Shown piece after piece: positions 6,328 to 64,000 of a DNA stretch of 64,000 nt. The stretch comes from Nitrosomonas communis. GTDB lineage: Bacteria > Pseudomonadota > Gammaproteobacteria > Burkholderiales > Nitrosomonadaceae. The stretch is taken from positions 372,001-436,000 of the forward strand of contig NZ_CP011451.1 in NCBI RefSeq assembly GCF_001007935.1, in the 5' to 3' direction. Both the position numbers and the translations under genes were made by a program. Each line of letters starts with the position of its first letter. Within the stretch, counting starts at the first letter, position 1. Under the pieces are notes generated by a model. That model was not told the origin of the DNA. It saw only the letters and a list, made by a program, of their open reading frames with translations, and did no database searches.

Positions 6328-7449
6328 TTACAATCGCATCGGCATCACAACATATTTAAAATGATCATTCTTTGGAATAGTTATTAAAGTACTACTATTA
6401 GCATTTTCAAAAGCACATTGAACGCTATCACTATTGAGATTATTTAATACATCTAATAAGTAATTAATATTAAAGCTGATATCGATAGTATCTTGCTGAT
6501 AGTCAATTTCAAGATCTTCTTGGGCTTCCTCTTGCTCACTATTTTTACAAACAATACTTAACATGCCATTCGAAATCACTAGCCTTACGCCGCGAAACTT
6601 CTCATTCGCATTGGATAGAATGGCAACTCGCTGCAATCCTTGCAAAAAACTTTGACGATTTATACTAAATTGCTTGGTATTGTTCACGGGAATCGCACGA
6701 TTGAAGTCTGGAAATTTTCCTTCGATGACTTTGGAAGTTAATACAATATCTGAAAAAGCAAAGCGTATTTTTTTTGGAAAGACTTCTATAATAACGGGTT
6801 CTTCAGTTTCATTAAGTAATTTTGAAAGTTCCTGCACAGTTTTCCGGGGAATGATAGTTTCTTTTCTTTCCCATTCATCTTCCAATTCAATTGAAGCATA
6901 GCTGAGACGATGACTATCCGTAGCTATAAACTTTAGATGTTTGCCTTCGATTAAAAGCAATAATCCATTCAGATAATAGCGAATGTCCTGCTGTGCCACA
7001 GCATATTGTACTAAGTGAAGAAGATCCTTTAAATTTTGTTGCGAGAGCGTAAGCGTGCTCTCTGGCATTTCTTCCTTTGGCATTCTCGGAAAATCATCTG
7101 CAGGAAGTATTTGCAAGCTGAAACGGCTTTTAATCGCGTTAATTTGTAGTCGATTATCAACTTTTGCTAGGGTAACTTCTGTATCGGAAGAAAAAGTACG
7201 CAATATCTCCAGCATCTTTTTTGATGAAACGGTAAGAGCAGAAAATTCCTTTGAGATTACTGTCTCAGAAGTTTGCAAATACGTTTCAATTTCTATTTCA
7301 AGATCAGTGGTTACAAAAACGATTTTCCCGTTCTCTTGCTTAATAAAGACGTTGGAAAGTATTGGTAGAGTATGACGCCGCTCAACAATGCCATTAACAA
7401 TTTGCAAAGGCTTAAGTAAAAAATCCCGGCTAGCTTTTATTAAATTCAT
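6328..7449 (-). CDS. dnaN: DNA polymerase III sliding clamp (beta)
   Basis: Beta clamp, the processivity ring of DNA polymerase III. The 373 residues match the usual length of about 366-375 and three-domain fold. It starts MNLIKASRDFLLKPLQ and ends with the typical YVVMPMRL, whose terminal hydrophobic residues belong to the clamp-binding pocket region. It lies downstream of dnaA across the putative origin and 75 bp upstream of gyrB. The order dnaA-dnaN-gyrB without recF is seen in several betaproteobacteria. Confidence 0.98.
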   Translation of the reverse strand: MNLIKASRDFLLKPLQIVNGIVERRHTLPILSNVFIKQENGKIVFVTTDLEIEIETYLQTSETVISKEFSALTVSSKKMLEILRTFSSDTEVTLAKVDNRLQINAIKSRFSLQILPADDFPRMPKEEMPESTLTLSQQNLKDLLHLVQYAVAQQDIRYYLNGLLLLIEGKHLKFIATDSHRLSYASIELEDEWERKETIIPRKTVQELSKLLNETEEPVIIEVFPKKIRFAFSDIVLTSKVIEGKFPDFNRAIPVNNTKQFSINRQSFLQGLQRVAILSNANEKFRGVRLVISNGMLSIVCKNSEQEEAQEDLEIDYQQDTIDISFNINYLLDVLNNLNSDSVQCAFENANSSTLITIPKNDHFKYVVMPMRL

Positions 7450-7578
7450 ATTATTTAAACTTTAATAAGAGTATATAAATATAATTCAATTCCGGTATAT
7501 CTATTAAAATATAATAAATATCAAATCCTTAAATAGAATTTCAGGCTTGTATAAAATAAAAGTTTTAATTGGATAATT

Positions 7579-7587
7579 TGTGGATAA
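7579..7587 (-). promoter_or_regulatory. DnaA box
   Basis: TGTGGATAA, the exact reverse complement of the TTATCCACA consensus. It sits inside a 26-base core (about 7562-7587) that is almost unchanged in the two oriC-like repeats elsewhere in the window. Confidence 0.8.
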
Positions 7588-7646
7588 ATTTGAGAAATTA
7601 ATTTTCTATCAAATTATCCTCAAACTATTCAGATTTTATATACAAA

Positions 7647-7655
7647 TTATCCACA
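7647..7655 (+). promoter_or_regulatory. DnaA box
   Basis: TTATCCACA, exact consensus, immediately adjoining the dnaA stop codon. Together with the box at 7579 it forms an outward-facing pair 68 bp apart (start to start). Confidence 0.8.
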
Positions 7656-9029
7656 TCAACCCCGTAGAATATGTAATAAAGCATTATAATCCCGGCTTAC
7701 GATGGGATCAGATGAGCGTAATTCTGCAATTTTTCGGTGAGCATGCAAGACAGTTGTGTGATCTCGTCCCCCAAATGCTTCCCCAATATCAGGTAAGCTT
7801 AATTGCGTGAGTTCTTTGGCAATGGCCATAGCAACCTGCCTGGGTCTTGCCACGATGCGCGTACGTTTTTTAGAGTACATCTCAGCTACTTTAATTTTGT
7901 AGTAATCAGCGACAGTTTTTTGAATATTTTCGATGGAGATTTGCCGGTTCTGGACAGCTAACAAATCTTTCAACGCTTCTTTTGCTAACTCCAAGGAAAG
8001 GGGATGGCCTGTAAAACGAGAATAAGCCAGCATCCGCTTCAGAGCGCCTTCCAATTCACGAACATTGGAGCGGATATGCTTCGCAACAAAAAAAGCAACA
8101 TTCTCATCTAGAACGATTTTTTCTATCAATGCCTTTTTCAGGAGAATAGCGACCCGCATTTCTAGCTCTGGTGGCTCAACCGCAACTGTTAATCCCCAAC
8201 CAAATCTTGATACCAGACGCTCTTCTAAGCCCGATATTTCTTTGGGATAACTATCGCAAGTAATAATGACTTGTTTATGCGCTTCAACAAGGGTATTGAA
8301 AGCATAGAAAAATTCTTCTTGAGTACGATTCTTGCCTCCAAAAAACTGAACATCATCAACAAGTAACACATCTAGTGAATGATAATACAATTTGAATTTA
8401 TCAAATGACTTGTGTTGATAAGCACTGACTACATCAGAAACATATTTTTCAGCATGAACATAGCGTATTTTGGCTTCATGATTATTTTCAAAAATATAAT
8501 TACCAATAGCTTGAATTAGATGCGTTTTGCCTAAACCAACTCCACCATAAATGAATAAAGGGTTGTAAGCGATCCCGGGACGTTCGGCAACTTGAATTGC
8601 ACCAGCCCGAGCGAGTTGATTGGCTTTTCCAGTAACGAAGCTATCAAAAGTAAAATTGGGATTTAGATGACTAGCGTTTCTTTTTTTGGGTACAGGTTTA
8701 GTAATTAATGATTGAACAGGAGAATTGTTGTTTACATGGTGTGAGCTTTCATCATTAGAAATTTTTGTATCAAATGTATTTCCAAGTATTAATTGAAAGT
8801 GAATTTTCTTAGAAAAATGTTGTTGAGCCATTACCTCAATATGAGGTATAAAATTGTCTTTAACCCATTGTAAGACGAACCGATTCGGTGCAATCAATAC
8901 AGGTTGATCATTACAATTTTCAGAAATATCTAATTGTAATGGTTTAATCCAGGTATTAAATTGTTGGGCATTTAGCTCTTTCTTGAAATGCTTAAGACAA
9001 GAGTACCAGAAAGTTTCTATTGCCTGCAT
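7656..9029 (-). CDS. dnaA: Chromosomal replication initiator DnaA
   Basis: AAA+ initiator that binds DnaA boxes and opens oriC. The 457-residue protein has an N-terminal helicase/DiaA-contact domain (to about residue 80) and a poorly conserved Ser/Asn-rich linker (about 85-125). The AAA+ core carries Walker [10 protein letters not shown] at about 162-170 and Walker [10 protein letters not shown]. Domain IV ends with the box-recognition helix [15 protein letters not shown]. Length is typical for betaproteobacteria. It is transcribed away from the glycan cluster and towards dnaN. No DnaA box was recognised in its own upstream region. Confidence 0.98.
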
Positions 9030-10673: not shown

Positions 10674-12507
10674 AGTGTTCCAGCTTGATCAATTGTCCCG
10701 TTTCGATCCAAACAGAACCCTTCCTTTTTCTCACCATGATAATGATGGCCGTATAAACTCTAATACGGCTTCTTCCTATAAGAATCTAGCTTTTCCACTT
10801 AATGTGTATGCGCATGCTTTGTTCCTCCAAGAGGGTCGAGTAAATTATTTACATTACGGGTTGTTTCAGAAAAATCAAACTGATCTTGAAGCAGCACAGC
10901 AATATTCAACTGATCTGCTTTTGAATCGCTTACCTGCTGCGCCCTGCCGTATTCTGGAAGTGGGGATAGGTCTCGGAACAACATTTTCTGTACTCATTCA
11001 GAAGGGATACCAGGTCTACGGTATCACGCCGGATGCCCAACAAATCGCGTTGATACACAAACGCTTAGGCTCCCAAGTTATGGTGGCTTGCCAACGTTTG
11101 GAGGACTTTGAAGCGGCACAAGATAGTTTTGATGTTATCCTGTTTCAGGAGTCTGCTCAATATATCGAGCCATTGGTCATTTTTAACAAAGGATTGGATC
11201 TAATAACTGAAGGTGGAAGCTTGCTTATAGTTGACGAATTTGCTTTGCGTCGAGACGAGGTTGGTGAAGAAGGTCTGCATTTGCTGAGTGATATGCTGGC
11301 ATTAGCCAATCGCTTGGGGTTTGAATTGGTTGAACAGCTGGATTTGTCGACTATGGCTGCACCTACACTGGATTATTTGCTCCAAGTGACGACGCGCCAG
11401 CGGCAGCGGTTGATGAATGACCTTTCCATGAATGCTGAGTGTCTTGAGCTACTGGAAGAATCCAACCGGCTATATCAAGAAAAATATGCGTGTGGACGAT
11501 TTGGTTATGCATTACTGCATTTCAGAAAAAAACAGCCGCCGCGGTGGCGGTTACGTTTGCTCGAAAAAAATCAGGCCCCTGATATGCTAGCCTTATTCAA
11601 GCAAACTTTTGGTCATAGTATGACGCCTTCTATGTGGCAGTGGAAATATGGTGCAGGGCGAGGCCGTGCAATCGGGGTATGGCATGGGGATCAATTGATT
11701 GCTCATTATGGCGGTATGGGACGCAATATTTTGTATTTTGGTCAGCCGCAAGCAGCTGTACAGATTGGTGATGTTATGGTCGATTCAGCAGAACGCGGTA
11801 TTTTGACAAAAAAAGGGCCCTTTTTCCTGATGGCAGCAACGTTTCTGGAACGCTATATAGGCTATGGTAAGCCTTATTTGCTAGGATTTGGCTTTCCCAA
11901 CGAGCGGGCCATGAAAGTAGCCGAGCGACAAGGATTGTATGCTGAAACGGCGCATATGAGCGAGATCGAGTGGCAGCCACTAGCCAGAACACCGCAGTGG
12001 TTAACGCGATTACATGTTGTGGATAGTTCAAATATCAATGACGTCTGGATTGCTACGGCGATTGCTCAATGTTGGCGAAGTATGGCTGCGGATTTGGAGG
12101 AAGCATTAGTCGGCGTGCGCGATTGGACGTACTTACGCGATCGCTATCTCAGTCATCCTCACCAGCATTATCAGGTTGTATTGGTAATCAATCGATTTGG
12201 CAGGAAAGTACGCGGAGTGTTAGTGTTGCGACATACTGCAGAAGGTTGTGAAATCACCGATCTTGTTTCACCATTAAAGGAGATTCCGTTACTAATAACA
12301 CATGCAAGAAGGATAGCGGGGATGAGCGGTCATCATCGGTTAAGTTGCCAAATTACCGAAAATTTTGCTTCGTATTTTGTTGCGACAGGCGGCACTAAGC
12401 AAGCATTACCTATCTGTATTCCAGCCAATGCTTGGAGTGCCGGTCCAATGGTAGAGACACTACGTAATCGCTGGTGGCTGATGAGCGGGGATATGGACTT
12501 CAGGTAA
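10660..12507 (+). CDS. Methyltransferase-GNAT acyltransferase fusion protein
   Basis: A 615-residue two-domain protein, probably modifying a glycan or sugar nucleotide. The N-terminal half has the class I SAM-binding motif RILEVGIGLGTTFSVL near residue 98, followed by a DVILFQESAQY motif-IV-like region. The C-terminal half (about 300-450) resembles a GNAT acyltransferase: QIGDVMVDSAERG followed by GFGFPNERAMKVAERQGL. I chose ATG 10660, preceded by GGAG and overlapping the ABC ATPase by 14 bp, over the longer frame opening at 10534, which would overlap that gene by 140 bp. The pairing of both activities in one chain suggests sequential decoration steps. The substrate is unknown. Confidence 0.75.
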   Translation: MMENRVFQLDQLSRFDPNRTLPFSHHDNDGRINSNTASSYKNLAFPLNVYAHALFLQEGRVNYLHYGLFQKNQTDLEAAQQYSTDLLLNRLPAAPCRILEVGIGLGTTFSVLIQKGYQVYGITPDAQQIALIHKRLGSQVMVACQRLEDFEAAQDSFDVILFQESAQYIEPLVIFNKGLDLITEGGSLLIVDEFALRRDEVGEEGLHLLSDMLALANRLGFELVEQLDLSTMAAPTLDYLLQVTTRQRQRLMNDLSMNAECLELLEESNRLYQEKYACGRFGYALLHFRKKQPPRWRLRLLEKNQAPDMLALFKQTFGHSMTPSMWQWKYGAGRGRAIGVWHGDQLIAHYGGMGRNILYFGQPQAAVQIGDVMVDSAERGILTKKGPFFLMAATFLERYIGYGKPYLLGFGFPNERAMKVAERQGLYAETAHMSEIEWQPLARTPQWLTRLHVVDSSNINDVWIATAIAQCWRSMAADLEEALVGVRDWTYLRDRYLSHPHQHYQVVLVINRFGRKVRGVLVLRHTAEGCEITDLVSPLKEIPLLITHARRIAGMSGHHRLSCQITENFASYFVATGGTKQALPICIPANAWSAGPMVETLRNRWWLMSGDMDFR

Positions 12508-26521: not shown

Positions 26522-28261
26522 ATGGAAACAAAAAAAATTGTATTGATCATCATTTTTAGCACATCGTTGCTATTTCTTTGGGATGCATGGGTAAAGGAGC
26601 GGGAGAGACTAGATCAATTGGCAGCTGGCCCAGCAGCCAGTACAGTCACCACTGAGAATGCACAGTCTCAGCAGAGCCATGATGCGTTACCTGTTCCGGG
26701 TGATACACTCACTTCTTCTCAATCAGATACTGCACAGGTACCAGGAGCTGAAGAGGCACCATCAACTGTGACACCACGTTTATTGGCAACAGGCGAGCAA
26801 GTTAAAGTCGTTACTGATATGGTGATAGCAGAGATTGATACCGTTGGAGGAGATCTTCGCCGTCTGGAATTACTCAAGCACCCATCCCGTGAAAATAAAG
26901 AAATCCCTTATGCATTGCTGCAAAGTCAAGGCTCCCGCATTAGCGTGGCACAATCAGGCCTGATTGGAGATGGTCTGCCCAATCATAAGACGGAATACAA
27001 GCTAGCTTCAGATACGCATAATTACAGCTTGGCAGCTGATCAAGACAAGGTAGTCATTCGTCTTATTGCTCAAGAAGTAAACGGCGTACAAGTTGCTAAA
27101 ATCTATACTTTTCATCGTGGTAGCTATGTCATCGATGTTCAATTTGAAGTGAAAAATCTGGGAGAGGCAACCATCTGGCCATTTGCTTATTTCCAGATAT
27201 TGCGGGATAACGTACCACCTGCAGGCGAGACAATGATGATTCCTACTTATCTAGGTGCTGCTATTTATACCGAGGATGAGAAGTTTCAAAAAATTCAGTT
27301 TTCTGATTTAGATAAAAATAAAGCAGATTACCCACAAAATGCAGATAATGGCTGGATCGCTATGCTGGAGCACTATTTCGTTTCAGCCTGGCTACCAGAA
27401 CAAACAATCCCTCGAGAGTATTTTGCAAAACGGATAAGTGATAACTTATACACCGCTGGTGTGATCGCACCGGTTGGTGCCATTGCGCCCGGTCAAACAA
27501 CAAGCATAACGATGCCACTGTATGAAGGGCCGCAGGAGCAGGACAAACTGGCAGAATTGGCACCTGGTTTGGAGCTGACAGTGGATTATGGTTGGCTTAC
27601 GGTGATTGCTGTTCCATTATTCTGGCTACTTTCGTTTTACCATGAATGGGTTGGTAACTGGGGGGTTGCTATCATCCTTCTGACGATGACGGTCAAGTTT
27701 TTATTTTTCCCGTTGTCAGCGGCAGGTTATCGGTCCATGGCTAAATTGCGTTTAGTGACACCGAAGCTACAACGTATCCAGGAACAATACAAAGGCGATC
27801 GCCAACAAATGCACCAGGCAATGATGCAGCTTTACAAAGAAGAAAAAATTAATCCGATGGGCGGGTGCCTTCCTATTCTAGTGCAAATTCCTGTGTTTAT
27901 TGCTCTGTTCTGGACGCTGCTTGCTGCTGTTGAGCTACGCTATGCACCGTTCGCATTGTGGATTACGGATTTGTCTTCACCTGATCCTTACTACGTATTG
28001 CCTGTGTTAATGGGGATTTCAATGTTCGTTCAATTTAAATTGAACCCCAAGCCGACTGATCCAATACAGGCTAAAGTCATGCAGATCATGCCACTCATGT
28101 TTAGTATATTTTTCTTCTTCTTCCCGGCTGGTCTGGTATTGTATTCATTAGTGAACAATGTGCTATCAATTGCCCAACAGTGGCAGATAACACGAATGTA
28201 TGGACAACCTGCTGCACCAGTAGCAGACAAAAAGAAAGTAAGAGAAAAAAGAAAATCTTAA
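26522..28261 (+). CDS. yidC: Membrane protein insertase YidC
   Basis: Inner-membrane insertase and Sec-associated chaperone. The 579-residue protein has the Gram-negative form. An N-terminal membrane helix (IVLIIIFSTSLLFLWDAW) leads into a large periplasmic domain (about 60-350). The five-helix insertase core follows, including MGGCLPILVQIPVFIALFW, and the C-terminus is basic. Frames are intact. mnmE follows after a 152-bp gap. Confidence 0.97.
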   Translation: METKKIVLIIIFSTSLLFLWDAWVKERERLDQLAAGPAASTVTTENAQSQQSHDALPVPGDTLTSSQSDTAQVPGAEEAPSTVTPRLLATGEQVKVVTDMVIAEIDTVGGDLRRLELLKHPSRENKEIPYALLQSQGSRISVAQSGLIGDGLPNHKTEYKLASDTHNYSLAADQDKVVIRLIAQEVNGVQVAKIYTFHRGSYVIDVQFEVKNLGEATIWPFAYFQILRDNVPPAGETMMIPTYLGAAIYTEDEKFQKIQFSDLDKNKADYPQNADNGWIAMLEHYFVSAWLPEQTIPREYFAKRISDNLYTAGVIAPVGAIAPGQTTSITMPLYEGPQEQDKLAELAPGLELTVDYGWLTVIAVPLFWLLSFYHEWVGNWGVAIILLTMTVKFLFFPLSAAGYRSMAKLRLVTPKLQRIQEQYKGDRQQMHQAMMQLYKEEKINPMGGCLPILVQIPVFIALFWTLLAAVELRYAPFALWITDLSSPDPYYVLPVLMGISMFVQFKLNPKPTDPIQAKVMQIMPLMFSIFFFFFPAGLVLYSLVNNVLSIAQQWQITRMYGQPAAPVADKKKVREKRKS

Positions 28262-39693: not shown

Positions 39694-39960
39694 TAAGTTA
39701 CTATTATTAACTTCTATTAAATTAAAGATTAGGAATAATAATAATTAGAAGTCAATTTCTGTATAGTTATGGAAAAGTATTAAATATCAATAATCTGGTT
39801 GAAAATTTTAATCTGTATAAAGTGGGAACTTTAACTGGATAATTTGTGGATAAAATTAAAAGATTAACTTTTTTCCTTGTTATGCAAAAACTATACAGAG
39901 TTTATTCACAGAGTTTCAGCATTAACCCTAAAAAAGAATTAGTTATTATCGTTTTTTGCT
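39694..39960 (+). repeat. oriC-like inverted repeat, copy A
   Basis: About 267 bp, roughly 90% identical to the reverse complement of 42141-42413 (14 mismatches counted in about 160 aligned bases). It contains TGTGGATAA at 39845-39853 and TTATTCACA at 39902-39910, both fitting TTATNCACA. Aligned without gaps to oriC (7495-7604 against 39761-39870), I count 74 of 110 matches. The core around GGATAATTTGTGGATAAA is unchanged. It carries no supported gene. Confidence 0.75.
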
Positions 39961-40173
39961 ATATTTATCGAGACAAAAGCAACGACTTAATGGATATGAT
40001 GTTGGTGGCAATAACCGGTCAAGTTAATTTTTAAGTTGATTAATAGCAGAGAGCTATTTGAGTTATTGACAGAAAGAAATCGAACTTTATATACAGGTGT
40101 CTGATAAGAGATGCAGCATGCTTGCGCGGCAAAGTTGGGTTCACCACCACTTTCCCCCTTTTATACACTAGGA

Positions 40174-40947
40174 TTAGTTTGTTACGGGTATCATCTCGAT
40201 TTCTAAATCTCCATATGGCGGAAGGCTGTCGTAAGGATTAGGAAGCTTGTCATCTGTAATGTACAGATTTCCAACGAGGTTTTTGTCAGTTTCACTGAAC
40301 GCCTGTTTCATTTGCAGCCGGGTTGCATTAAATACAATGTGGATAAACCAATCCTTCGGGTAATTATGCTGCCATGCTTCAGGTTGAAAATTTATGTAAC
40401 TTCTTATGTGACCTTCAAATACTACTAAATTATCGACGACTGGTTTGCTTAAATAAATTTCGTCAGGCACCACGCCAGGGTTCCCCGTTACCGAATAATG
40501 GCTGCTTTTATTTTTGATGTAGTTATATATTGTCTCGTAGTACCTGATGTCTTCATCTGTGTCGTCTGCGGTCATCTGATCGATATAAAAGCCATCAATC
40601 ATATAGAAGGCAAGATAATTATCAATATCGCTTGCAACATCACTCAGCGGGCGGTCTCCATGATTCGTATGTATGTAGGCAATTACCTTTCCTCCAGAGC
40701 CACGAACTTGATCAATAGCCGTAACATAGCTAGGGTCAACATTTGATCCAGGCCCGTTGTTTGGGTTAAGAATGACGGTAGTAGGTACTATTTGGGCTGC
40801 TGCAGCTAAGCTACTCCAGTGATTTGGAGTCTGGGGATCTGATGGATGAAAATATGCTGGAATGAAAAGACTGGTCGCATGAACGAGCGTATTGAATGCT
40901 ATTGACAAATAAACTATTAAAAGCAAAACAAAGCGTGTTATGCTCAT
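40174..40947 (-). CDS. Secreted spherulin-4 / spherulation-specific family 4 protein
   Basis: A 257-residue protein with an N-terminal signal peptide (RFVLLLIVYLSIAFNTLVHA). The TIM-barrel-like domain follows: LFIPAYFHPSD, ILNPNNGPG, GKVIAYIHTNHGDRPL and DGFYIDQMTADD, motifs of the spherulation-specific family 4. These proteins are related to glycoside hydrolases (endo-galactosaminidase-like) and act outside the cell. ATG 40947 with AGGAG ten bases upstream is preferred over a longer frame to 41001. It is the only intact gene between the two oriC-like inverted repeats and looks like cargo. The enzymatic activity is not proven. Confidence 0.75.
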   Translation of the reverse strand: MSITRFVLLLIVYLSIAFNTLVHATSLFIPAYFHPSDPQTPNHWSSLAAAAQIVPTTVILNPNNGPGSNVDPSYVTAIDQVRGSGGKVIAYIHTNHGDRPLSDVASDIDNYLAFYMIDGFYIDQMTADDTDEDIRYYETIYNYIKNKSSHYSVTGNPGVVPDEIYLSKPVVDNLVVFEGHIRSYINFQPEAWQHNYPKDWFIHIVFNATRLQMKQAFSETDKNLVGNLYITDDKLPNPYDSLPPYGDLEIEMIPVTN

Positions 40948-41379
40948 GCCGCATATCTCCTGTAAAGAGGGATAGAAAAAATAAAGAAAAAAAGCACCCA
41001 TTTGCTCAAATGAGCGTTTTCATATTATGTACCGATGCTAAGGTATAACTAATAGCCTAGCAATAATGCAAAGGTATACAGTGTTTATTCGCTATTTGAT
41101 TGTTCAGTTCAGGTCGACGTTGAATAGTGTGTGTTTAAGGTATTCATATACGTTATGCCAAAGGGTAGCTGTTTTAAACAGCTGCGCAGCGGTTTTTAGC
41201 CCAAGCTTAAAGCTGTGCAGAAAATTGCATTAACAACTCTGTTTTTGCCTTCTTGAAATATGTATGTAAACCAGTTAGCGTCAAAGTACATAGCCTTCGT
41301 GCCGCGCTTCAGCTAGGCGGGCGAGCATATCTTGATTGCTGCCCCAGTATTACAAGCAAGCTCAAAATACTCATTTAAA
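40948..41379. other. Gene-free stretch upstream of the spherulin-like gene
   Basis: 432 bp. Holds the likely promoter of the minus-strand gene and a small palindrome (AGCTGTTT-T-AAACAGCT, about 41167-41183). Part of it may be the lost N-terminal half of the IS630 remnant that follows. Confidence 0.4.
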
Positions 41380-41745
41380 GGATTGGCATGCAAGAGTCCG
41401 AACCAATGTCATTGGGGCTCTGATCGAAAAGGCGCACCTGACCGTGAGCCTGTTCACAGCCAATATCAACGCTGATATCTTCATGCATGGGTTACGCAGG
41501 ATTTTTTGTCCAAAATCCCGCGTGCTTACATAATCGTCTGGGACAACGCGACGTTTCACAAACGGGCAGACATCAAAACCACGTTCACCAATGTGGGGAC
41601 ACGCTTGAATACCTGCCGTCTTATTCTCCTGACTTTAATCACATTGAACCAATATGGGCTCAGGCCAAAGCCATCAGAAGAAGGGAAGGTTGTTCCGTCG
41701 AGCAGCTCTTTGCCGGTTATGAAATTTGATTCATTTTATATGGGA
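41380..41745 (+). pseudogene. IS630-family transposase C-terminal remnant
   Basis: Across shifted frames it reads RVRTNVIGALIEKAHLTVSL, FTANINADIFMHG, QDFLSKIPRAYIIVWDNATF (DDE Asp), HKRADIKTTFTNVG and EYLPSYSPDFNHIEPIWAQA (DDE Glu), then KAIRRREGCSVEQLFAGYE. This is the IS630 catalytic half. The N-terminal HTH part is lost and at least two frameshifts are present. Confidence 0.75.
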
Positions 41746-42140
41746 TCTGCTATACCACTTCGCTAGCAACAATACCGCAGAATTTCGTATTGCGCTTACC
41801 ATCGCAATTAGATGTAGTGATGAGTAATTACTTCATCCCCAAAGAAGTTTAGTTTATGAATATTTTTTCCTGCTGATTCATCTCTATTACAAGAGGAGAA
41901 GAGAAAAAGTAAAAGGAATTGATGGTTTACTTGCTGTTGCTGAATAACAACCAACCTATCCTGTCATATAAAAAAATGTAGATGAAAAACGGACTTGATG
42001 AAATTGGCATTATCAGGCGTATTACTTCAGCAACGCTAACAAAACCATTCTTTAATTTACAAACAAGATAAAGAATAGGCCAAAATCTTCGCTTCAACCT
42101 ACAAAGCTGTTGATTTTATTATCGGTAAGTCAATGAAGGT
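41746..42140. other. Gene-free AT-rich stretch
   Basis: 395 bp with no supported gene, between the IS630 remnant and oriC-like copy B. Confidence 0.45.
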
Positions 42141-42413
42141 AATAAAAAAAACGACAATGATTAGTCCTTCTCATTATGGTTAATGCTGAAACTTTGTGAA
42201 TAAACTCTGTATAATTTTTGCATAACAAGGAAAAAAGTTAATCTTTAAATTTTATCCACAAACTATCCAGTTAACATTCCTACTTTATACAGATAAAAAT
42301 TTTCAATCAGGCTATTGATATTTAATATCTTTCTATAACTATACAGAAATTGGCTTTTAATTATTATCATTCCTAATCTCTAATTTAATAATCTTTGATC
42401 ATAGTAATTAGTT
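42141..42413 (-). repeat. oriC-like inverted repeat, copy B
   Basis: Reverse-complement partner of 39694-39960. It holds TTATCCACA at 42252-42260 and TGTGAATAA at 42195-42203, so the two-box arrangement of copy A is kept in mirror image. Similarity runs from AAAAAACGAC on the left to about TAATTAG on the right, well beyond the boxes. Confidence 0.75.
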
Positions 42414-42766
42414 TCTAACCAGTACCAGTCAAAATTTATAACCAGCCAAATACGGCCTTAAACGCTTAGCCAAGATCGTACAGACCATTTTAGTAATAAA
42501 CTACTTTCTTAGCTGCTGCTAACCATAAGTCCCAGATATATGCACGAATAAGTGCATTATCGATAATGCACTGATATTATTTGCTACAACGCAATATCAC
42601 TCTCTTTTACTTTTTACTATAAATCTTCCTAACAAGCGGAAAGTAAGCTGCGGCTAGGTTAAAATACCGTCTGTAATTTTTTGCTTGCTGCTGATATTGC
42701 GCCTGCAGAAAAATAAATTTTTGGTACCAGACTACTCAGCAAATAAATAAAGGAATATTGATAGTT
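42414..42766. other. Intergenic region upstream of the DAHP synthase gene
   Basis: 353 bp without a gene. AAGGAA at 42750-42755 is the ribosome site for the next gene. No leader peptide or clear operator was recognised. Confidence 0.5.
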
Positions 42767-43843
42767 ATGAAATTTCAGACCGATGATTTACGCATTATCG
42801 GCATGCATGAACTTACCCCGCCGGTGGAATTGCACCGTGAGTATCCTATTACGGAAACAGCAACTGAGATGGTTCACTTAGCGCGCCAAGCCATTCACCG
42901 GATTTTGCATGGTGAAGAGGATCGCTTGCTAGTAGTGACAGGACCCTGCTCCATTCATGATGTAGATGCGGCGCTGGAATATGGTGCTCGCTTGAAACAT
43001 TTACGCGAAGTGTTCAAGGACCAACTACATATCGTTATGCGGGTATACTTCGAAAAACCACGGACCACTATCGGCTGGAAAGGATTAATCAACGACCCTG
43101 ACCTGGATAACAGCTTTCACATCAATAAGGGTTTGCGCATAGCGCGTAAACTACTGCTGGATTTAAATAACCTGGGGATGCCTGCGGCTACGGAATATCT
43201 TGATTTGATCAGTCCCCAGTATCTGTCAGATTTGATTAGCTGGGCCGCGATTGGGGCTCGCACCACTGAGAGCCAGGCGCACCGCGAATTGGCATCTGGT
43301 GTCTCCTGTCCTATTGGCTTCAAGAATGGCACCTATGGGAATCTAAACATTGCCATCGATGCGATTGGCGCCGCATCTCGGCCGCATCATTTTCTTTCGG
43401 TTACTAAAGAGGGCCGTACCGCCATTTTTGCTACGAAGGGGAATGAAGATTGCCACATCATCCTGCGCGGCGGACGCAAGACTAACTACGATAGCACCAG
43501 CGTAGCTGTGGCCATTGAAGATTTAACCAAAGCCAAGCTGCCACCTTACCTGATGATTGATTTCAGTCATGCCAACAGCCATAAAGACTACCGACGCCAG
43601 CCGGAGGTAAGCGCCAGTGTGGCAGAGCAGATTGCGAGTGGAAGTGATGCCATCTGCGGCGTGATGATCGAAAGTCATCTGGTTGAAGGCAATCAAAAAG
43701 CAGATGGCAAGAAACGTGAAGAATTAGTCTATGGACAAAGCATTACCGATGGCTGCATCAGCTTCGAGGCAACCGAACAGGTTTTATCTCAATTAGCGGA
43801 AGCCGTGGAGAAACGCAGAAAAGGATTAAAAAAGGCCTCATAA
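42767..43843 (+). CDS. aroG: 3-deoxy-7-phosphoheptulonate synthase (class I, AroF/G/H type)
   Basis: Condenses phosphoenolpyruvate and erythrose 4-phosphate, the first step of the shikimate pathway. The 358-residue protein carries VTGPCSIHD, YFEKPRTTIGWKGLINDPDL, GARTTESQAHRELASGVSCP and IDFSHANSHKD, all diagnostic of the metal-dependent class I enzymes. ATG 42767 is 11 bp after AAGGAA. The TTG at 42758 is too close to it. Which aromatic amino acid inhibits it cannot be told from sequence here. It stands alone between the IS graveyard and an IS982 element. Confidence 0.93.
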   Translation: MKFQTDDLRIIGMHELTPPVELHREYPITETATEMVHLARQAIHRILHGEEDRLLVVTGPCSIHDVDAALEYGARLKHLREVFKDQLHIVMRVYFEKPRTTIGWKGLINDPDLDNSFHINKGLRIARKLLLDLNNLGMPAATEYLDLISPQYLSDLISWAAIGARTTESQAHRELASGVSCPIGFKNGTYGNLNIAIDAIGAASRPHHFLSVTKEGRTAIFATKGNEDCHIILRGGRKTNYDSTSVAVAIEDLTKAKLPPYLMIDFSHANSHKDYRRQPEVSASVAEQIASGSDAICGVMIESHLVEGNQKADGKKREELVYGQSITDGCISFEATEQVLSQLAEAVEKRRKGLKKAS

Positions 43844-43870
43844 GCGAACCGCCGTACTCCATTTCCTAAC

Positions 43871-44877
43871 ATAACGTGAGTTCGACATAAGAATCATCAA
43901 ATCACGACTGGAAGAGCTTGAGGGAGCCTGATATTAAGTGAGGGTTTCTTCTCGCGAAAGGTGTAAGCCACCAATCCGGCTATCAGATTAACAAAAAAGT
44001 TAACTGGGCTGCGATGGCGGGAGTGCTCGATTTGCGAGATATTCTTCAATGGGTCATTGACGCTCTCAATGATCGAACGTTTACGTAGCAGCAGCTTGTC
44101 AAACAACGGCAACAGCTTGTTTTTCATGTTCTTGCGTACTTTGGTGATGAGCTGCACGCCTTGCTCGCGGAGTTGCTCAAAGAGTGATTGCGAAATGTAG
44201 CCCCGGTCACCGAAGAGTTTGCCAAACAAGGAGCGCGTCACCTCTGGTACCGGGTCACGGTCATCCACATTGCCCGCCGTTATTTTTACCCCTGGCAATT
44301 CTCCCTGGTCATTAATGACCAGGTGCAGCTTGAATCCATAAAACCAACCCATGCTGGTCTTTCCCCGGGCAGCAAACCCTGCCATTACTTGATGAGACCC
44401 AATACGGCGATTATGGCACACACTAATCTTAGTCGAATCAATGAAACTGATCCCACTACATTGCCCAAAGCGACTGGTCAGAAAACAGCACAAAGGCACC
44501 AGGCTACCTTGCAACAGCTCCACAAAGCGGTGGTAACTCACCAACCCTGGAAAATAATCGCGCTGATACCTCAACACGTAATTCAGGTAATAGTGTTTAA
44601 ACGTCCGGTACCCGGATAGATGAAACCCGACCATGATGGTCATGATTTCGCTTAGACACAGCGCTCCTTGCCGCCGACGCTGTTTCAGCGATGACTCTAA
44701 TAAGTGCTGCTCCCATTGCGGCTCAAACTCTTTACAAAATTCGTCACTCTCACAAAAAATCGTTGTAGTATCCATGGAAATCTGACTCCTCTCATGATGA
44801 AATTCTTTTGCAAAACCATTTCATCATAAGGAATTCAGGTTTCTTTTACAGCTTTTCTTATGTCGAACTCACGTTAT
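43871..44877 (-). mobile_element. IS982-family insertion sequence, intact
   Basis: About 1,007 bp bounded by a perfect 23-bp inverted repeat, whose inner 20 bases read ACGTGAGTTCGACATAAGAA at the left (43874-43893) and its complement at the right (44855-44874). It encloses one full-length transposase. The target duplication is not evident. The element lies 27 bp after the aroG stop and could affect downstream transcription. Confidence 0.85.
43897..44775 (-). CDS. IS982-family transposase
   Basis: A 292-residue DDE transposase without frameshifts. The N-terminus has LCLSEIMTIMVGFHLSGYRT. The catalytic part carries SFIDSTKISVCHNRR (first Asp), FGDRGYISQSLFEQL (second Asp) and RKRSIIESVNDPLKN (Glu), followed by the C-terminal FFVNLIAGLVAY. 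This is the IS982 order and size. It is flanked by intact terminal repeats, so the element may still move. Confidence 0.88.
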   Translation of the reverse strand: MDTTTIFCESDEFCKEFEPQWEQHLLESSLKQRRRQGALCLSEIMTIMVGFHLSGYRTFKHYYLNYVLRYQRDYFPGLVSYHRFVELLQGSLVPLCCFLTSRFGQCSGISFIDSTKISVCHNRRIGSHQVMAGFAARGKTSMGWFYGFKLHLVINDQGELPGVKITAGNVDDRDPVPEVTRSLFGKLFGDRGYISQSLFEQLREQGVQLITKVRKNMKNKLLPLFDKLLLRKRSIIESVNDPLKNISQIEHSRHRSPVNFFVNLIAGLVAYTFREKKPSLNIRLPQALPVVI

Positions 44878-45094
44878 ATTATGGTAAAAAGTGTTTTTGT
44901 TCCAGGAAACTTGCCTCAAACCTGTTTTCATGACTAACTAACGGATCATCCCAGTAAAGCCTTTACCGCTCACGGTGAACTCATCAATCTGCCAGGCAAT
45001 TGGCATTGGCCTTGGACGAGCTCAGATTGAACGGCATTTTTCTTAATGTTATGTTGGAACAGTTTTCTAGAGATGACTTTTTATCAGAGGATGG

Positions 45095-63080: not shown

Positions 63081-64000
63081 TCAAGGTTTTGTTTGACGTT
63101 TTTTTGCCTGTTCATCCCGCTTTTTTAAGTACTGCAATTTTTCAGCAATTTTTGCCTCCAGTCCGTAAGAGGTAGGATGATAGAAATCCACTGGTGGCAT
63201 ATCATCTGGAAAATAACTTTCCCCCGCGGCATAAGCTTCCGGCTCATCATGCGCGTAACGATAATGCTGCCCGAAACCCATGTCTTTCATAAGCTTGGTA
63301 GGTGCGTTGCGTAATCGTAGCGGTATACGACGCGATTGATCGTGCTCGACATATGAGCGGGCTTTTTTGTAAGCAAGGTAGGCTGCATTGCTTTTTGGGG
63401 CACAGGCCAGGTAGAGCGTTGCCTGCACCAGCGCCAATTCACCTTCCGGGCTGCCGAGACGTTCATAAGCGTTACAGGCATCGAGTGTAAGGGTCAGTGC
63501 ACGCGGATCAGCAAGGCCGATATCCTCGGTGGCCGTACGGATGAGGCGTCGGCCGATATAGAGCGGATCGGCACCACTATCGAGCATGCGGCACATCCAG
63601 TAAAGAGCGGCGTCCGGGGAAGAACCACGGATCGATTTATGTAAGGCTGAAATCTGATCATAAAATTCGTCACCACCTTTATCAAAAAGACGCATACTGC
63701 GCGATAGTACATTGCGCACAAAGTCTGCATTTATCTCACTTATTCCTTCAGTCTCGGCAGCAATATCCGCCTGCTCAAGCAAGTTGAGCAGGCGCCGCGC
63801 ATCACCATCGGCAAAAGTGATCAGGAGATGTTTTGCTTCCTCTGAGAAATGTATTTTCTGCAGCGCTAACTGACAGGCGCGCTCAAGCAATTGCTTAAGT
63901 TCCTCCTCGGATAAAGGGCTCAGCATATACACTTGCGCGCGTGAAAGGAGTGCGCGATTGACTTCAAATGAGGGATTTTCGGTAGTAGCACCGATAAAGG
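63081..64000 (-). CDS. rarA: Replication-associated recombination protein A (partial)
   Basis: C-terminal about 305 residues of the RarA/MgsA AAA+ ATPase, which acts at stalled replication forks. The N-terminus with Walker A/B lies beyond the window. Visible are GATTENPSFEVNRALLSRAQ (sensor 1 region), ITFADGDARRLLNLLEQ, HKSIRGSSPDAALYWMCRML and GRRLIRTATEDIGLADPRAL, all typical. The stop codon TGA lies within the TCAA duplication made by the adjoining IS5-family element. The protein ends KKRQTKP and appears complete at its C-terminus. Confidence 0.95.
   Translation of the reverse strand, partial: FIGATTENPSFEVNRALLSRAQVYMLSPLSEEELKQLLERACQLALQKIHFSEEAKHLLITFADGDARRLLNLLEQADIAAETEGISEINADFVRNVLSRSMRLFDKGGDEFYDQISALHKSIRGSSPDAALYWMCRMLDSGADPLYIGRRLIRTATEDIGLADPRALTLTLDACNAYERLGSPEGELALVQATLYLACAPKSNAAYLAYKKARSYVEHDQSRRIPLRLRNAPTKLMKDMGFGQHYRYAHDEPEAYAAGESYFPDDMPPVDFYHPTSYGLEAKIAEKLQYLKKRDEQAKKRQTKP

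Follow-up and report, generated by a model that had tools for sequence, protein, structure and literature searches.

What are two sequences that look like a replication origin doing 32 kb away from it? The question is raised by a stretch of 64,000 nucleotides of the chromosome of the nitrifying bacterium Nitrosomonas communis (NZ_CP011451.1, positions 372,001 to 436,000), which we call the window and whose coordinates are used below unless stated otherwise. The canonical replication origin (oriC) occupies 7434-7662 on the forward strand and consists of the gap between dnaA (7656-9029, reverse strand; TIGR00362, 571.9 bits) and dnaN (6328-7449, reverse strand; TIGR00663, 287.9 bits) together with a few codons of each gene. 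Two further sequences, A (39694-39960, forward strand) and B (42141-42413, reverse strand), form an inverted pair around a Spherulin4 family gene. The original prediction described them as oriC-like inverted repeats of about 90% identity, lying about 32 kb from oriC. The distance was correct, and the identity is close to that value: 87% over 262 nt by BLAST, with 89% complementarity over the 234 nt of the inverted arms (39698-39931 and 42174-42407). We find that A and B are homologues of oriC over the whole gap. As to their use, the reading that we favor, at a probability of about 0.4, is that they are members of a small, dispersed family of DnaA-assembly sites derived from oriC, which would mainly draw away or regulate DnaA near oriC.

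The homology itself is beyond reasonable dispute. Within its own genome, A matches the dnaA-dnaN gap at 71% identity over ~230 bp (BLAST, E 2.6e-20), and B matches oriC at 70.7% over 188 nt. When local alignment scores were compared with those of 2000 dinucleotide shuffles, A scored 104 against oriC (shuffle mean 22.7, sd 2.9, maximum 42; z 27.6) and B scored 93 (z 24.5), while the best of 109 AT-rich tiles taken elsewhere in the window reached 30. Shuffles and tiles together rule out chance similarity of AT-rich sequence, so that the resemblance not only stands but is stronger than first claimed. The homology begins ~15 nt inside dnaN and stops a few codons inside dnaA, without entering the gene bodies; a search for dnaA or dnaN remnants beside the copies gave a best match of only E 0.11. 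For wider searches we used R1, a model built from sequence only, using 17 copies of this clade, A among them. Its core maps to 39724-39927 in A (132.8 bits, A being part of the model) and to 42178-42381 in B, and in both the end corresponding to the dnaN side points outward, to the left in A and to the right in B.

DnaA boxes follow the consensus TTWTNCACA. A, B and oriC each contain two exact boxes on opposite strands: 39845-39853 (reverse strand, TTATCCACA) and 39902-39910 (forward strand, TTATTCACA) in A, 42252-42260 (forward) and 42195-42203 (reverse) in B, and 7579-7587 (reverse) and 7647-7655 (forward) in oriC. The idea that the copies share the box arrangement of oriC therefore holds for the number of boxes and their opposite strands, but only the first box, box 1 (TGTGGATAA), lies at a homologous position. 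The second is found at alignment position 178 in A and B, away from its usual place, at ~190 in their own oriC and at ~157 in most other aligned origins. Similarly, box 1 and its flank, said to be unchanged, are intact in A (GGATAATTTGTGGATAAA), but B carries one change (GGATAGTTTGTGGATAAA). The box count of the window as a whole is ordinary (12 versus 7.5 expected, a number reached by 6 of 100 shuffles).

A and B turned out not to be the only copies. In the source genome (G000; one contig of 4,067,838 bases) there are four full-length matches, namely oriC, A, B and a further copy at 1,693,766-1,693,970 of the chromosome, in addition to partial antisense overlaps of oriC and A. Thus, the two oriC-like sequences originally counted are real, but the count was incomplete. 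The additional copy lies upstream of a topoisomerase IV gene pair, whose ParC exceeds the NCBIfam cutoff and whose ParE matches parE_Gneg best, below the cutoff; we refer to it and its counterparts in relatives as parE copies. The relatives are partly draft assemblies, and drafts may miss copies. R1 matched 80 of 85 genus genomes (E 0.01) and 108 of 125 family genomes (E 0.001), nearly always at one full-length place. In the genus this place nearly always proved to be the origin where its surroundings were read: all 21 loci with flanking sequence have dnaA and dnaN, and 39 of 40 shorter stretches contain the dnaA end or the dnaN start. Among the 14 genomes with a weak R1 match or none in which dnaA was sought, it was present in 13, and the gap was readable in 12. 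The only match of G066 in the genus search lies far from its dnaA, and weak partial matches away from the gap occur in G004, G014, G066, G079 and G119. One more genome, G057, has matches on two contigs and is 7% contaminated. Full-length copies outside the gap number 13 and are distributed over six genomes: G000 (A, B and parE), G072 (an A/B-type pair), G002 (pair and parE), G003 (parE and the tandem copies x1 and x2), G068 (parE) and G069 (a single copy, Y). The sequences behind R1 all come from this clade, and in distant species it may therefore overlook additional copies that have diverged just as far.

The gap is a general feature of the family, whereas copies occur in one group; the comparison therefore indicates that the copies descend from oriC. 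In the phylogenetic tree they cluster by locus rather than by genome, with one lineage formed by A, B and Y (support 96/94), another by x1 and x2 (92/89) and a third by the parE copies, whose support (93/77) falls under the usual mark. All copies may go back to one single origin. A shares 385 nt with Y and B shares 279 nt with it, and because A thus has more flank in common with Y, B is probably the later of the two, an inverted local duplication. Homology upstream of aroG, the conserved neighbor outside B, begins at ~42606 (G069), 42611 (G003), 42654 (G013) and 42738 (G068), and R1 finds no copy upstream of aroG in any of these four genomes. Likewise, G013 has recQ and parE without a copy. 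Relatives lacking copies at these sites imply that the copies were either gained in this group or lost outside it.

Some observations adjoin these results. Upstream of aroG in G069 (L077:3464-3873), stretches of 66 and 114 nt match the interior next to B (41815-42007) in inverted orientation. The parE-type gene has a scattered distribution, occurring in 18 of 85 genus genomes at E <=1e-200 (L005:10171-14540), with none at that cut in G072 and G069. Viral relatives of the copies were considered and rejected, as four viral contigs share only a 19-nt origin core with them (R1 at most 19.6 bits). In two of these contigs (L221:6542-6781 and L223:10161-10400) the core occurs twice, 221 bp apart, and in L223 the doubled core adjoins an open reading frame that, judged by eye, looks like an integrase.

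To what extent have the copies remained origin-like? We aligned them to R1 and compared their changes with conservation in 28 outgroup origin rows, four of which are the duplicates of G009 and G044; a repeat G009 row was left out. Changes were scored as the number of letters minus one per lineage, without a fitted model. Columns conserved in at least 90% of the outgroup show 0.34 changes per column in the copies, and those conserved in <60% show 1.65. The correlation between conservation and change is -0.48 (rho), a value as low being reached by none of 179 circular shifts, and each copy lineage taken alone gives -0.31 to -0.40, again with 0 of 179 shifts as low. The sparing also holds with 24 outgroup rows, within A columns, within T columns and left of box 1. 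Across 58 outgroup-conserved columns, the 13 copies have 3-10 mismatches and so do the six oriCs of the clade; in other words, the copies are as oriC-like as the clade's own origins. Box 1 is kept in all 13 copies, and 9 of them have two exact boxes, the rest one. The AT-rich dnaN side is easily melted as well. The weakest 50-bp window reaches -48.2 kcal/mol in A, -51.0 in B and -46.4 in oriC, compared with a 95th percentile of -53.3 and a 99th of -50.2 for tiles of the window (oriC, A and B included). Eight copies (A, B, Y, x1, x2 and three parE copies) span -48.2 to -53.4, the parE copy of G000 (-53.4) being just below the 95th percentile, and 24 outgroup origins have a median of -50.4, with one row, cut short, at -55.8. 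The non-random sparing, together with that of the melting side, speaks for selection on the whole origin-like unit.

The map positions of the copies add a further regularity. G068 has the relevant genes on a single contig, with oriC at 26,959, aroG at 63,662, yajQ at 75,752, a HI0933-like gene at 80,402 and the parE copy at 88,845; aroG, yajQ and the parE copy thus lie 36.7, 49 and 62 kb from oriC, on the same side. The tandem x1 and x2 of G003 are located between the HI0933-like gene and yajQ, and Y of G069 is downstream of yajQ. Projected onto the gene order of G068, then, none of the copy sites is farther than ~62 kb from oriC and all fall to the same side, although G068 itself has a copy at the parE site only. 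In G000 the parE block is found at 1.69 Mb because of a rearrangement that broke just outside aroG: the sequence directly to the right of aroG in G068 corresponds to 1,652,248 in G000, and at the break in the window there is an insertion sequence with 27-bp inverted ends (43867-44881).

Taken together, these features are what we would expect of sites that act on DnaA supply. Copies that keep box 1, the origin-conserved positions and an easily melted AT-rich dnaN side would still let DnaA assemble on them as on oriC. Lying near oriC, they would be doubled soon after initiation, and the doubled copies could then soak up or regulate DnaA, as proposed for DnaA-box clusters and datA. Several points weigh against such a role. 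With one or two exact boxes, a copy has fewer than the five of datA. The sparing of the melting side exceeds what a pure DnaA sink needs, and the easily melted window largely restates AT-richness. Both copies and clade oriCs are somewhat looser than the single-copy outgroup origins, whose mismatches in a leave-one-out count have a median of 5.8% and a maximum of 15%. Between G000 and G068 the parE copies are 73% alike, barely more than the 70.7% over 406 nt for element plus flank. Finally, the parE copy of G000 is now 1.3 Mb from oriC, and G068 and G069, both draft assemblies, show one extra copy each.

The spared melting side is also what makes standby activity the main rival of DnaA titration. 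According to this alternative, the copies are secondary origins that can fire, and in G003 one of them may have replaced a decayed dnaA-dnaN origin. We regard this as unlikely, yet a normally silent working origin is the next most likely use after DnaA titration or regulation; a titrating site and a silent origin were two of the three roles originally proposed, and both keep appreciable probability. Apart from the conserved architecture as a whole, the case is based on the canonical gaps of G003 and G002. In the G003 gap (L096:2828-3026) box 1 has been lost through several changes (TTGTGGATAA to TCTGCGAATG), while x1, x2 and the parE copy of the same genome keep it; the G002 gap has a single change in box 1. 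The G003 gap is also stiffer (-55.7 kcal/mol) than its copies (-51.8, -51.0 and -50.1). Scored strand-specifically as TGTGNAWAA, box 1 is present in the gap in 24 of 24 single-copy rows, in 36 of 40 further sequences from 39 genomes (misses in G005, G007, G008 and G023) and in 10 of the 12 gaps of genomes with weak or undetected matches (misses in G006 and G024). Taken together, and with the two G057 sequences set aside, 68 of the 74 genomes that have a single R1 copy or whose gap could be read carry an exact box 1, versus 4 of the 6 genomes with dispersed copies. Relaxed or lost origin function in the G003 gap is therefore possible. However, six single-copy genomes also have a changed box 1, all of them keeping TGTGGATGA or TGTGGACAA. 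Moreover, the G003 gap retains one TTATCCACA, its tree branch (0.39) is shorter than those of the single-copy origins of G042 (0.47) and G052 (0.44), and the cut-short outgroup row is as stiff as the G003 gap. GC skew gives a mixed picture. The main cumulative minimum is inside dnaA, beside the gap, in G068, G003 (24,921 of its origin contig), G069, G072 and G002, and 0.4 kb from dnaA in G013; in the window, too, the minimum (8545) is inside dnaA, and near A there is no minimum but the maximum (38,758). In G068 the cumulative skew dips slightly at 89,370, ~0.3 kb away from the parE copy; a deeper dip at ~109 kb is not accompanied by a copy, and divergent genes could account for the slighter one. 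Minima too shallow to interpret occur on short G003 contigs at 11,209 (1.4 kb from x2) and at 723 (at the contig edge, 0.3 kb from the parE copy). In G000 the sampled skew stays largely below zero between 414 kb and ~1.65 Mb and is above zero between 1.75 and 2.4 Mb. A second origin near its parE copy was considered as the cause and rejected: since aroG of G068 directly precedes the sequence found at 1,652,248 in G000, the rearrangement just outside aroG explains the pattern better. Overall, the skew data do not demonstrate a second origin. The bolder proposal, that chromosomes of the communis group have several selected origins able to fire and that in G003 a copy took over from the decayed dnaA-dnaN origin, we consider doubtful; if true, a bacterium would have duplicated its origin in nature and then switched from one to the other.

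Selection on the copies need not be assumed if they are neutral relics, local oriC duplications that persist by chance. G009 (L093:3242-4098) and G044 (L094:3211-4190) each have two oriC copies in tandem in the dnaA-dnaN interval, separated in G044 by a fragment of dnaA (residues 230-369), so that duplication of the oriC region has evidently recurred. In overall identity the parE copies hardly differ from their flank, which would fit neutrality as well. What makes relics improbable in our estimate is the sparing of origin-conserved columns, which recurs in every lineage separately. Yet another possibility is that the copies are DnaA-responsive promoter or operator modules placed before genes. 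Their dnaN-side end does face a gene read away from it at oriC (dnaN), between recQ and parE in G068 (recQ), between B and aroG, and at x1 (the HI0933-like gene). But aroG keeps its own upstream stretch (from ~42606-42611) in G069 and G003, which lack B, recQ and parE manage without a copy in G013, and neither A nor x2 faces any clear gene, making this explanation more improbable than relics. Least credible of all, with hardly any probability left, is the last of the three original proposals, that A and B terminate a mobile unit which has picked up oriC DNA, with the Spherulin4 gene as its cargo. An inverted pair enclosing a gene invites it, as do the larger and different interior in G002 (~4.6 kb with extra pieces, compared with 2.2 kb in G000), the presence of the A/B/Y lineage in two places, and insertion sequence remnants inside and beside the pair. 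Against it, the pair is found beside aroG around a Spherulin4 gene, at the same site in three genomes (G000, G072 and G002), and single copies without this gene exist (the parE copies and Y). Terminal inverted repeats do not exceed chance, as 82-281 of 300 shuffles score as high for A, B, the G000 parE copy and Y (31 of 300 for oriC). Flank matches resembling target-site duplications, for element ends not fixed to the base, are 5 nt for the pair and 5-7 nt for single copies, and 300 random placements give 3-9 nt with a mode of 5. A has no match in phage or plasmid records at E 1e-5. As to transposases, none was recognized as linked to the copies, while insertion sequence genes and a transposase-like remnant occur nearby, the remnant between A and B.

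The gene enclosed by A and B (40174-41001, reverse strand) was correctly recognized as spherulin-like (PF12138, Pfam 145.1 bits) and is probably a passenger. Matches to Spherulin4 occur in 4 of 85 genomes (five in G000, four in G072, ten, including fragments, in G002 and two in G003), mostly without a copy nearby. Several of these matches appear to contain an internal stop. The transposase-like remnant (41506-41766) has no NCBIfam match and resembles IS630. Outside B, aroG (42758-43843, forward strand; PF00793, TIGR00034) codes for an AroG-type DAHP synthase and is the same neighbor in G072 and G002.

How do these sites compare with systems already described? Among the matches listed from open-licence PMC papers, no title dealt with dispersed oriC-derived copies in Nitrosomonas. 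In Bacillus subtilis, removal of all six DnaA-box clusters leads to early initiation, which is partly relieved when one cluster is restored (PMC5295017, citing Okumura 2012). The Nitrosomonas sites resemble the oriC-proximal clusters of B. subtilis in placing DnaA boxes outside oriC and near it (32 kb in the window; 37-62 kb in G068). They differ in being paralogues of oriC itself, melting side included. The datA and DARS loci of Escherichia coli, which are non-coding and lie outside oriC, bind DnaA and regulate initiation (PMC5295017, PMC4585315), and the copies are similarly non-coding putative DnaA sites away from oriC. However, datA has five high-affinity boxes (PMC5295017) and needs IHF, whereas each Nitrosomonas copy has one or two exact boxes. 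A region dense in motifs near the E. coli origin offers another analogue for the soaking up of DnaA (PMC12371093).

With respect to origin number, putative double origins have been reported on chromosomes, some of them ascribed to duplication (Gao 2015, PMC4403523), and like these DoriC cases the Nitrosomonas chromosomes have more than one oriC-like region. The DoriC cases involve duplicated dnaA regions or are hemE- or parB-linked, whereas in Nitrosomonas the gap alone is dispersed, in up to three extra copies and in several species. In Mycobacterium bovis BCG Pasteur both the dnaA gene cluster and oriC are duplicated (PMC4403523), and it shares with Nitrosomonas the presence of extra oriC copies on a natural chromosome. 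Its duplications are large and in tandem (two of ~30 and 36 kb; PMC2448323), unlike the dispersed 230-bp copies of Nitrosomonas.

It is regarded as an open question whether natural bacterial chromosomes employ more than one oriC (PMC4403523). The present group can be cultivated and has as many as three additional oriC copies per genome, present in several species and under visible constraint, alongside relatives seemingly without copies. Such a group makes it feasible to distinguish titration from standby origins and from relics. The copies may help to set when, or even where, chromosome copying begins, and G003 is a candidate case of an origin that is changing its place.

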